From NCBI GenBank assembly GCA_001787205.1, contig MFWB01000011.1:1-47668 (forward strand): DNA of 47,668 nucleotides. Reading direction: 5' to 3'. Position numbers and translations under genes: made by a program. Source of the stretch: Candidatus Nomurabacteria bacterium RIFOXYB1_FULL_39_16 (GTDB taxonomy: Bacteria; Patescibacteriota; Minisyncoccia; Phycocordibacterales; UBA9973). The notes under the pieces are model-generated. The model saw nothing but the letters and a program-made list of their open reading frames with translations. It had not been told where the DNA came from and searched no databases. Of this stretch, positions 35,999 to 39,770 are shown piece after piece (positions within the stretch are counted from its first letter, which is position 1; the number at the start of each line of letters is the position of its first letter).

Positions 35999-38900
35999 TT
36001 ATTTCTCAATTTTTATTTTGAATACTAGCTCGTCTATTTTGACTTCCCCGCCTGCTCCCTCATCGTGAGGGCGGGCAGGTTCCCCATCAGTATTTTTGAA
36101 TTCTATTTTAGATACCAATACAGTCTTTTTGAGATCATTTTCAAATTTTTGAATTAATTTTTTACCAGCATCATCTGTTTCAATGAGAAGCGTGATGACA
36201 TCACTCGGAGTAAGCCCCATCTTTTTTCTCATATCTTGCAGGGCACGAGCAAGCTCTCTATAGTCCCCTTCTTCTTTTAACTCTGGAGTTATTTGTATAT
36301 CTAACTCCACCTCATTTTCAATATTTTTATTTTCTACTACTTCTTTTACGTTAATTTCATCTTTGATGAGTTCCGTGTATTCTTCTCCCAGGGCAAAATT
36401 CTTGATTTCTAATTTACTAAGTGGTTGCCTGACTTTTAGTCCGGCTTTTTGTCTCGCTTCAAGACCCAAAGTGACGATATTTCTGGTCTTTTCCATTTTT
36501 TCTATTATTTTTGACTTATCGTCATAAGAAAAAATCTTAAAAAGACTAACAGCGCTACCATTAAGAGCAAGCCATTCGGTCAAATGAACACTTTCCACTT
36601 CGTCAGTGTTACGCAACCTCAGCCAGATATCTTCCGCGGCAAAAGGTGCAAATGGGGCTAATATTTTAGCCAGGGTTTTCAATATATAATATAAGGATTG
36701 TTTCGCATTAATATCTCCTTCTTTGATTCTGTCCCGAGAACGACGTAAATACCAAGTAGAAAGGTCATCTATAAATAAATCTATTGGCCTAGTCGCCTCT
36801 GCCATATCATAATTCTCCATACCTTTCGTAATCTCATCTATCGTTTGAAGTAACCGTGATAAAATCCACTGATCCAACACGGCCTTACTCTCTTCCACAT
36901 TATTAAATTCACATTTTTTATCTCTATAAAGTTCATAAAAGGCGAGAACATTGAAAAGTCTACCAATTATTTTACTTGAAATATCTTGTACTGCTTTCTC
37001 TGAGAAATTTGCATCTTCGCCTTTCATTAAAGTAGAAGACATCAGATAAATGCGCAGCGCATCCGCGCCATATTTGTCTATGAAGCTCCACGGGTCGGGA
37101 TAATTATTCTTTGACTTGGACATCTTCTCTCCATCTCCAGCTCTTATGGTACCAGTCGTGACGACATTTTCAAATGGTGCTTGATTAAAAAGTATAGTGG
37201 ACACAACGTGCGTATAATAAAACCAAGTTCTAACTTGCCCTATATATTCAGCCACAAAGCCTGCCGGAAAATTATTCTTCTGCCAATCTTTGTTTTCAAA
37301 TGGATAGTGGTCCTGCGCGAAAGGCATAGAGCCGGACTCAAACCAACAGTCCAAAACTTCAGGGATACGTACTAAATCATTTCCACATCCACAAACAAGA
37401 TTAACTTCATCAATATACGGTCGATGTAAATCTAATTGCCCGTTAGCATTTCTCGGTAATGATAAAAAATCACATTGAAAAACTTCTGCATTTTGAATTG
37501 CAGGATATTTTATATTTAAATTATCAAATTCCTCTTTTTCACTCAATGATTCGTAACTAGACAACAATACACGAATTGGGTATTCATGAGAAATTATTAA
37601 AATATTCTTTCCTGAGTATTTTTTTTCTAAATCACTTAAAATACCAATCATTCTCTTTCTGATATCTTCACTATTTTCATCTGGTGATTTTTCTGCGCCG
37701 GCTTCTCTTAATTCTTCATTAATAATGATTTGGTCTTTTTGAATATCAAAAAATTCTGCTACAATTTCTGCTGTTTGTTTAGTTCTAGTAAAACTAGAAG
37801 AAATGATTATATCTGGTTTTTTTTCTAAACTTTCTGCTTTTGTTTTGACTTGCTTTATACCTTCTTCTGTTAAAGCGTCATTCGCTTCCCCAGCTTTCAA
37901 GCTTTCTGCATTTTTTGCATTTGCGATAGAAACACCATGTCGCATGACAAAATATTTATTTCCGGATTTTTTGGTTTTATTTTTCAAATCTTCTAAAGAA
38001 CTTACAAAGGTCTGCTCTTTGCATTTCTCGCATTTCCAAATCGGAAGCGGACTTGCCCAATAACGGTTCCTAGAGATATTCCAGTCCGGGGCATTTTCCA
38101 TTATGTTTTTAAATCTCCCTTCTTTTAAGTGAGCAGGAATCCAATTCATATTCTCCGCCCGCTTTATGACATTTTCTTTTACTTTTTTGATATTTATAAA
38201 CCACGAAGGCAGAGCGTAATAAATGATGGGAGTGTCGCAACGATAACAATGCGGATAAGAGTGGATTATTTTTTCCTTAGCAAAAAGAACATTGCTCTTT
38301 GCTAAATATTTTATTACTTCAACATCCGCTTTTTGATGTCCATCCTTGTCTTCGGATTTTGGTTTTACTTGCATACCCGCAAAGTCAGTGACTTCTGGCT
38401 TAAATCGTCCTGTCTCATCCACGTGGATAATCCAAGGAATGTCGTTCTGTTTAGCCAAATTCATGTCGTCCTCTCCGAAGGCCGGAGCCTCGTGCGCCAT
38501 ACCTGTACCCTTATCCAGAGTTACGAAATCCGCATGCCAAACTTTCCAAATATTTTTATTTTTTGCGGCTTCGGAATCTTTATAATATGGGAAAATTGGT
38601 TTATACTTTTTGCCAACTAAATCTCCACCACTGATTTCTCCTAAAACAGAATATTCTTTGTCTTTAAGAACATTTTGTAGTGTTTCTTTTGCAAGTATAA
38701 AAATTTCATCACCCACTTTTGCTTTAACGTAAGTGAAATTTTTATTTATAGCAATAGCCGTATTGCCTGGAAGTGTCCATGGAGTCGTAGTCCAAGCAAG
38801 AAGATAAGTTTTTGGCTCACCTGCCTGCGCAGGCAGGTCTTCTAGTTCAAACTTTACATATACAGAAATATCAGAAATATCTTTATAACTGTTATCCATC

Positions 38901-39487
38901 GCAATTTCAGAATTTGCTATTGGTGTCTCACATCTAGAACAATAAGCGAGTACTCGCACTCCTTCATAAATTAAATTCTTTTTATTTAATTCAGATAACG
39001 CCCACCAGACAGATTCAATGAAAGTGTTGTCCATAGTTTTATAACTCCCGCGGAAATCCACCCAACGCCCGATGCGTTCTATCCCCTTTTCCCAATCTTT
39101 ATCATATTGCAGGACTTTACTTCGCGCGTATTCAACGAATTTATCAATGCCGTATTCTTCAATTTCTTGATGCCCAGCAATCTTTAACTCTTTTTCAACG
39201 ATATTCTCAATCGGCAATCCGTGGCAATCCCAACCCCACTTACGAGGCACGTGATACCCCTGCATCGTCTGATACCTACCTATGACGTCTTTTGCTGTAC
39301 TCCCCAGTATGTGCCCATAATGTATCTGCCCCGTAGCAAAAGGTGGACCATCATAAAAAACATAGTGCCCCTTGGGCGCCTTCTTCTTTAGCGACTTTTC
39401 AAAAGTTTTACTCTCCCGCCAAAATTCTAAAATGCGCTCTTCACGAAGCGCCGCCTCGGATTTTTTATTTATATTTTTTTCTTCCAT
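35999..39487 (-). CDS. ileS: Isoleucyl-tRNA synthetase with inserted histidine-phosphatase-like domain
   Basis: DGPPFATGQIHYGHILGSTAKD (HIGH), AWTTTPWTLPGN, GTGMAHEAPAFGEDD, DGEKMSKSKNNYPDP (KMSKS); insertion at about aa 508-680. Confidence 0.97.
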   Translation of the reverse strand: MEEKNINKKSEAALREERILEFWRESKTFEKSLKKKAPKGHYVFYDGPPFATGQIHYGHILGSTAKDVIGRYQTMQGYHVPRKWGWDCHGLPIENIVEKELKIAGHQEIEEYGIDKFVEYARSKVLQYDKDWEKGIERIGRWVDFRGSYKTMDNTFIESVWWALSELNKKNLIYEGVRVLAYCSRCETPIANSEIAMDNSYKDISDISVYVKFELEDLPAQAGEPKTYLLAWTTTPWTLPGNTAIAINKNFTYVKAKVGDEIFILAKETLQNVLKDKEYSVLGEISGGDLVGKKYKPIFPYYKDSEAAKNKNIWKVWHADFVTLDKGTGMAHEAPAFGEDDMNLAKQNDIPWIIHVDETGRFKPEVTDFAGMQVKPKSEDKDGHQKADVEVIKYLAKSNVLFAKEKIIHSYPHCYRCDTPIIYYALPSWFINIKKVKENVIKRAENMNWIPAHLKEGRFKNIMENAPDWNISRNRYWASPLPIWKCEKCKEQTFVSSLEDLKNKTKKSGNKYFVMRHGVSIANAKNAESLKAGEANDALTEEGIKQVKTKAESLEKKPDIIISSSFTRTKQTAEIVAEFFDIQKDQIIINEELREAGAEKSPDENSEDIRKRMIGILSDLEKKYSGKNILIISHEYPIRVLLSSYESLSEKEEFDNLNIKYPAIQNAEVFQCDFLSLPRNANGQLDLHRPYIDEVNLVCGCGNDLVRIPEVLDCWFESGSMPFAQDHYPFENKDWQKNNFPAGFVAEYIGQVRTWFYYTHVVSTILFNQAPFENVVTTGTIRAGDGEKMSKSKNNYPDPWSFIDKYGADALRIYLMSSTLMKGEDANFSEKAVQDISSKIIGRLFNVLAFYELYRDKKCEFNNVEESKAVLDQWILSRLLQTIDEITKGMENYDMAEATRPIDLFIDDLSTWYLRRSRDRIKEGDINAKQSLYYILKTLAKILAPFAPFAAEDIWLRLRNTDEVESVHLTEWLALNGSAVSLFKIFSYDDKSKIIEKMEKTRNIVTLGLEARQKAGLKVRQPLSKLEIKNFALGEEYTELIKDEINVKEVVENKNIENEVELDIQITPELKEEGDYRELARALQDMRKKMGLTPSDVITLLIETDDAGKKLIQKFENDLKKTVLVSKIEFKNTDGEPARPHDEGAGGEVKIDELVFKIKIEK
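36046..36079. repeat. Palindromic element in the ileS 3' region
   Basis: Minus strand CCTGCCCGCCCTCACGATGAGGGAGCAGGCGGGG; encodes PARPHDEGAGG. Confidence 0.8.
38819..38838. repeat. 20-bp perfect palindrome inside ileS
   Basis: ACCTGCCTGCGCAGGCAGGT; encodes LPAQAG. Confidence 0.9.
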
Positions 39488-39503: not shown

Positions 39504-39673
39504 AAAAAAACTCGTCCACGTACAACAATTTTAATAATTGCTATACAAGGACGAGTTTCTCGCTCGTGGTACCACCTTGGTTGCTTCTCATTTCCTGCTA
39601 TAACGGGCTTACCCGTCGGGTTCTACTTTGTTTCTTCCCGAAGCTCCAGGGCGATACCCCTTTCAACGCTTAT
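39504..39673 (-). promoter_or_regulatory. T-box riboswitch (tRNA-Ile responsive) upstream of ileS
   Basis: Minus strand AAGGTGGTACCACGAG (39578-39563) T-box/antiterminator bulge, pairing partner CTCGTCCTT; ATC in loop of AGGG-GTATCG-CCCT; terminator hairpin with T7 at 39504-39558. Confidence 0.92.
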
Positions 39674-39770
39674 GAATGAATAATAACACAAAATAATACA
39701 AAAACACAATCTCATTTTTTATATTTCATAATACAAAACCTATTTACACCATGGTTGAAATGTGTAAAAA

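Follow-up and report, generated by a model that had tools for sequence, protein, structure and literature searches.

T-box riboswitches are sorted into classes by the architecture of their Stems I and II, class III being marked by a short Stem I with a penta- or hexanucleotide specifier loop at its apex and by a Stem II that is required, and acting mostly on translation (PMC10482949). In the ileS leader of Nocardia farcinica, Stem IIA/B is reported to be essential for tRNA binding (PMC10651847). The accessible T-box literature concerns mainly Gram-positive phyla, and its accounts of class III are chiefly of actinobacterial ileS leaders that control translation. Here we describe the leader of the isoleucyl-tRNA synthetase gene ileS in a 47,668 nt stretch of DNA (hereafter the window, contig MFWB01000011.1) from Candidatus Nomurabacteria bacterium RIFOXYB1_FULL_39_16, where it occupies a minus-strand gap between the end of a recD-like helicase gene (39771) and the start of ileS (39487); all features of the window given below are on this minus strand. 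We give a probability of roughly 0.9 to this leader being a T-box that responds to tRNA-Ile through transcription termination; on its sequence, it combines the architecture of class III (ultrashort Stem I) with predicted transcription termination. A preliminary description of the same DNA had proposed such a transcriptional, ultrashort-Stem-I T-box before ileS in a bacterium of the Candidate Phyla Radiation (CPR), and the covariation of Stem I, the apical AUC, a -10 element locked in position, terminators in related leaders and homologues of Nomurabacteria type all bear this out.

The leader resembles the actinobacterial class III T-boxes before ileS (Nocardia farcinica, Mycobacterium; PMC10482949, PMC10651847) in its kink-turn (K-turn)-like Stem I without a distal tRNA-elbow module, in the AUC held in a hexanucleotide apical loop, in the zero-length linker leading to a Stem II with an S-turn, in its Stem IIA hairpin, T-box bulge and discriminator helix, and in the gene it would control. 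It differs from them in having an intrinsic terminator rather than a sequestrator, no Shine-Dalgarno sequence and no Stem III helix, whilst its patescibacterial relatives also serve aspS, thrS, serS and tyrS, often have apical loops of 7–8 nt and, unlike the N. farcinica leader with its essential IIA/B, in some cases do without Stem IIA/B. With class I of the Bacillota (e.g. Bacillus subtilis tyrS) it shares the antiterminator/terminator logic, UGGN bulge, specifier–anticodon pairing and Stem II S-turn, but it has no long Stem I and carries the specifier in an apical loop, not in a side bulge. Class IV (Actinomyces ileS) likewise has no distal elbow-binding module, yet a second Stem I helix is absent from the window; inserts reminiscent of class IV occur in the related ileS T-boxes L013, L017/L036 and L030, where an additional hairpin interrupts either the specifier loop (class IV-like) or the K-turn strand of Stem I. 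In the open-access literature we found no treatment of T-boxes in CPR/Patescibacteria, prior description in subscription papers being possible.

The leader (39675..39544) aligned end to end with the Rfam T-box model RF00230 (model positions 1–219) at 64.0 bits, with an E-value of 1.8e-13 in an 801-nt search and 4.0e-14 against the whole genome. The Infernal-type scan that the preliminary description had suggested as a check therefore returns a full-model match, though one under the gathering score, and every sequence element that it had named was located where it had been placed. An Rfam scan of the window at the gathering threshold (93) left the ileS T-box unreported, as 64 bits falls short of it, and routine Rfam annotation consequently misses this leader; the gathering score is an annotation cut-off and not a biological feature, and we used E-values instead. 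In the alignment, approximately 70 distal Stem I positions of the model were reduced to 4 nt, leaving Stem I without the distal double T-loop module, whilst the basal helix, the K-turn strands (GUUGA/GGAGC), Stem II, a CCGUUA element and the antiterminator were all aligned.

Stem I is ultrashort at 31 nt (39641..39671), and as RNA reads AAGC[GUUGAA]AGGG(GUAUCG)CCCU[GGA]GCUU: a basal helix AAGC/GCTT, a K-turn-like element GTTGAA/GGA, whose signature at the base of the stem is present and conserved in sequence, and an apical hairpin AGGG-GTATCG-CCCT (39661-39648), in which the upper helix AGGG/CCCT closes a 6 nt loop. The loop presents the isoleucine specifier AUC (39653..39655), followed by the purine G. 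Stem I ends at 39641 and Stem II begins at 39640, giving the zero-length linker; Stem II (39617..39640) bears the S-turn (loop E) signature GAAGAAA...AGTAGAA, in which AGTAGAA is conserved and the TAGA is invariant among relatives. A Stem IIA hairpin (GACGGG/CCCGTT) with a downstream F-box-like TATAGC, together forming a putative IIA/B pseudoknot, follows at 39597..39617. IIB is weak in the window itself, with 2 base pairs only, and its pairing finds support at family level, where the observed mean was 3.10 against a maximum of 3.05 in 2000 permutations. The linker AGGAAATGAGAAGCAACC (39579..39596), which includes the purine-rich GAGAAG, showed no hairpin past IIA and has no Stem III helix. 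The antiterminator (39547..39578) is AAGG[TGGTACC]ACGAG...CTCGTCCTT, with helices A1 (AAGG/CCTT) and A2 (ACGAG/CTCGT) either side of the bulge TGGTACC (39568..39574), whose UGGU complements the tRNA 3' ACCA.

Related leaders support these helices by covariation. When 14 aligned leaders were scored against the structure seen in the window, paired cells came to 91.2% and 17 of 27 pairs had changed on both sides, a result reached by none of 500 shuffles, whilst slid versions of the structure gave 29–51%. A covariance model built from these 14 leaders (R1) matched in 81 of 297 genomes of the order (E ≤ 1e-3) and in 84 of 287 across the phylum (E ≤ 1e-5), counts that are not all of ultrashort forms, since the discriminator domain is common to R1 and long T-boxes. 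In 79 sequences fitted to the covariance model, an alignment for that reason biased towards the model, 92.0% of cells were paired and both sides had changed in 26 of 27 pairs, against 36–50% paired in the slid controls, which weigh more than the shuffles because the latter leave relatedness in place. By helix, pairing in the 79 sequences was 93.8% in upper Stem I and 98.7% in Stem II (both with two-sided changes at 4/4 pairs), 82.5% in the covarying Stem IIA, and 98.5% and 91.3% in the two antiterminator helices (helices 5 and 6). RF00230 itself detected T-boxes in 26 of 60 relatives (E ≤ 0.01), none above the gathering score, and in 129 of 381 Patescibacteria (E ≤ 0.001), 13 of them above it; the phylum holds both long canonical and ultrashort T-boxes.

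The specifier agrees with the downstream gene. At the position aligned to AUC, 31 of 35 held-out ileS relatives have ATC, whilst 30 of 35 held-out aspS matches have GAC or AAC (three more are one base out of register), and the held-out matches ahead of serS and tyrS have AGC and TAC, respectively. The bulge agrees in turn with the tRNA: the genome's tRNA-Ile(GAU) has the discriminator A73, which fits UGGU, and tRNA-Asn and tRNA-Asp have G73, in agreement with aspS bulges that are mostly UGGC. The same genome possesses a second ultrashort T-box, which lies ahead of thrS and shows ACC in an apical loop of 7 nt on a covarying closing stem; its bulge UGGA matches U73 of tRNA-Thr(GGU). As read from the sequences, then, the ultrashort design precedes ileS, aspS (GAC/AAC), thrS, serS and tyrS across the Patescibacteria. 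The ultrashort ileS T-box of the preliminary description thus stands, but its design is neither unique nor specific to ileS, given these other targets, and long T-boxes also occur in the phylum. Besides tRNA-Ile(GAU), the genome contains a tRNA that we read as tRNA-Ile with anticodon UAU (L047 1501-1575); in many bacteria AUA is decoded by a lysidine-modified CAU tRNA.

Downstream of the antiterminator lies an intrinsic terminator (39504..39557), consisting of a hairpin at 39557-39509 and a tract of seven T at 39510-39504. The competing hairpin with T7 noted previously is accordingly present, and it is strong (-31.2 kcal/mol, z -8.9 vs. shuffles). The antiterminator's 3' strand doubles as the 5' arm of this hairpin (the common segment is CUCGUCC), which makes the two hairpins mutually exclusive, and a hairpin with a T tract was found in 67 of 78 related ileS, aspS and thrS leaders. 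The precedent of class III in Actinobacteria would suggest instead that the leader acts mainly on translation, with the hairpin and T7 serving as a processing or stability element. We consider this unlikely: no Shine-Dalgarno-like sequence was found upstream of the ileS ATG (39487) in TTTTTTTATTAAAAAATAATTTTATG, and a strong hairpin with a U tract sharing the antiterminator strand, recurrent to this extent in relatives, argues for termination.

The promoter proposed in the preliminary description (39680..39709) consists of a weak -35, TTGTGT (39709-39704), and an extended -10, TGTTATTAT, with the hexamer TATTAT (39685-39680). Both hexamers are present and the -10 is backed by its position in relatives, but a generic promoter consensus scan did not report this promoter and the -35 remains weak. 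Across 68 related leaders in which Stem I is clear, the positions of -10-like hexamers peak 28–31 nt upstream of the specifier, and 62 of the 68 had such a hexamer starting between -31 and -16, whereas shuffling gave 39.7 on average and 51 at most; this count omits leaders with inserted hairpins or other forms of Stem I, in which automatic picking of the specifier failed. The TATTAT of the window, at -30 from the specifier, falls on the peak. Transcription would start at approximately 39673, about 99 nt ahead of the T-box bulge, close to the ~95 nt estimated earlier. In a canonical T-box, the part of Stem I lying 5' of the specifier takes up some 60 nt or more, and a promoter in this position would therefore exclude a long Stem I. 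Were the true start instead in or before the recD-like gene, a full-length Stem I could lie upstream, and a start site that is predicted from sequence and a weak -35 leave some room for this. We nevertheless regard it as very improbable. Stem I is closed by its own basal helix AAGC/GCTT, and RF00230 aligns from its position 1 onwards with the distal part missing; dozens of relatives keep the -10 at a fixed place relative to the specifier, and in the AT-rich 99 nt upstream there is no feature resembling Stem I.

The palindrome ATTTCARCCATGGYGTAAAT occurs upstream of both T-box promoters of the genome, at 39742-39761 for ileS and at ~1500-1520 of L072 for thrS. It has approximately seven genome sites at ≤2 mismatches, whilst a reversed control had none; the idea of an operator shared by the two T-boxes was set aside, as other genome sites carry the palindrome too. 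It may be an operator, or else a repeat element.

Several observations weigh against a terminating T-box for tRNA-Ile at this locus. The RF00230 score is under the Rfam gathering threshold, the -35 is poor (TTGTGT matches TTGACA at 3/6 positions) and the start site is inferred, and the unconstrained minimum-energy fold favours long-range pairing over Stem I, so that the case for Stem I is made by covariation and homology. In isolation, Stem I (z -0.80) and the antiterminator (z -0.62) are of unremarkable stability relative to shuffles; folding energy by itself is thus no evidence for either, and we relied on covariation. Of nine named homologous ileS genes, five have no leader and four have one, and T-box control is therefore not essential in the group. 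The low score and the sporadic occurrence among relatives would also fit a decayed remnant without function, a reading to which we give almost no credence, because the helices are kept by changes on both sides and because the cognate specifier, bulge, tRNA discriminator, terminator and promoter are all intact.

A T-box for tRNA-Ile controlling termination would work as follows. From a start near 39673, the nascent 31-nt Stem I would present AUC in its hexanucleotide loop for pairing with the tRNA-Ile anticodon GAU, a pairing that the S-turn of Stem II would clamp. The 3' ACCA of an uncharged tRNA would then pair with the UGGU bulge and stabilise the antiterminator, letting the polymerase enter ileS, whilst charged tRNA-Ile could not pair at the bulge, such that the terminator would form and transcription would stop ahead of the ATG. 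Binding of tRNA, sensitivity to its charging and read-through of the leader are all predicted by this scheme.

The relatives extend the range of this architecture. In six of them (L013, L032, L033, L121, L128 and L131) just 22–25 nt separate Stem II from the antiterminator, with no IIA/B and no Stem III, and the shortest such leaders total ~114–117 nt. We think it reasonably probable that the T-boxes of the Patescibacteria that combine an ultrashort Stem I with transcription termination make up a large set of broad specificity (Ile, Asp, Asn, Thr, Ser and Tyr), which has for the most part escaped annotation and includes forms of ~114 nt without IIA/B and Stem III, a minimal architecture distinct from the translational ileS class of Actinobacteria. 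The thrS T-boxes L002 (1500-1649, minus strand), L021, L025-L028 and L162 show, by eye, a further helix around Stem I and Stem II (AUA.GA.GAUU ... AAUC-UAU), and this enclosing-helix form, unlike the ileS form, is possibly a separate architecture. Three other T-box leaders (L014, L019 and L029, at ~1501) share GGCATYCCTCCGTAATCATAGGAAAACCG and GAGGGTTGGG, and in these an ordinary Stem I is not obvious; the protein 3' of the L014 leader had no NCBIfam match. T-box matches were also seen ahead of argG (L012) and of trpE-/trpD-like and tryptophan-dehydrogenase-like genes (phylum matches including L103, L104 and L106), and biosynthetic genes are therefore covered too.

The downstream gene (ileS, 35999..39487) encodes a synthetase of 1162 amino acids (TIGR00392, E 1.8e-252, above cut-off), whose homologues place the organism in Candidatus Nomurabacteria/Paceibacterota, i.e. 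in the Patescibacteria. Within IleS, residues ~505–690 form a histidine phosphatase (branch 1) domain (PF00300, E 3.2e-19), inserted in the zinc-ribbon region of the synthetase ahead of the KMSKS half. Its RHG motif was present in 10/10 homologues compared, whether or not they had a T-box, and the region of the later catalytic His was mostly kept across the ten; a narrow literature search turned up nothing on a phosphatase domain inserted in this synthetase. At the other end of the window, a 23S rRNA gene is truncated by the edge, and positions 1-914 contain its beginning.

In practical terms, the Rfam cut-off mostly misses the ultrashort leaders of Patescibacteria, as seen in the 60 relatives, where none of the 26 with a match scored above it. 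Such leaders offer short constructs for structural work, and they raise the question of how an RNA functions without elements that have proved essential elsewhere. For the organisms themselves, compact transcriptional T-boxes on several synthetases suggest that uncharged tRNA is a main starvation signal in ultra-small, amino-acid-dependent bacteria.
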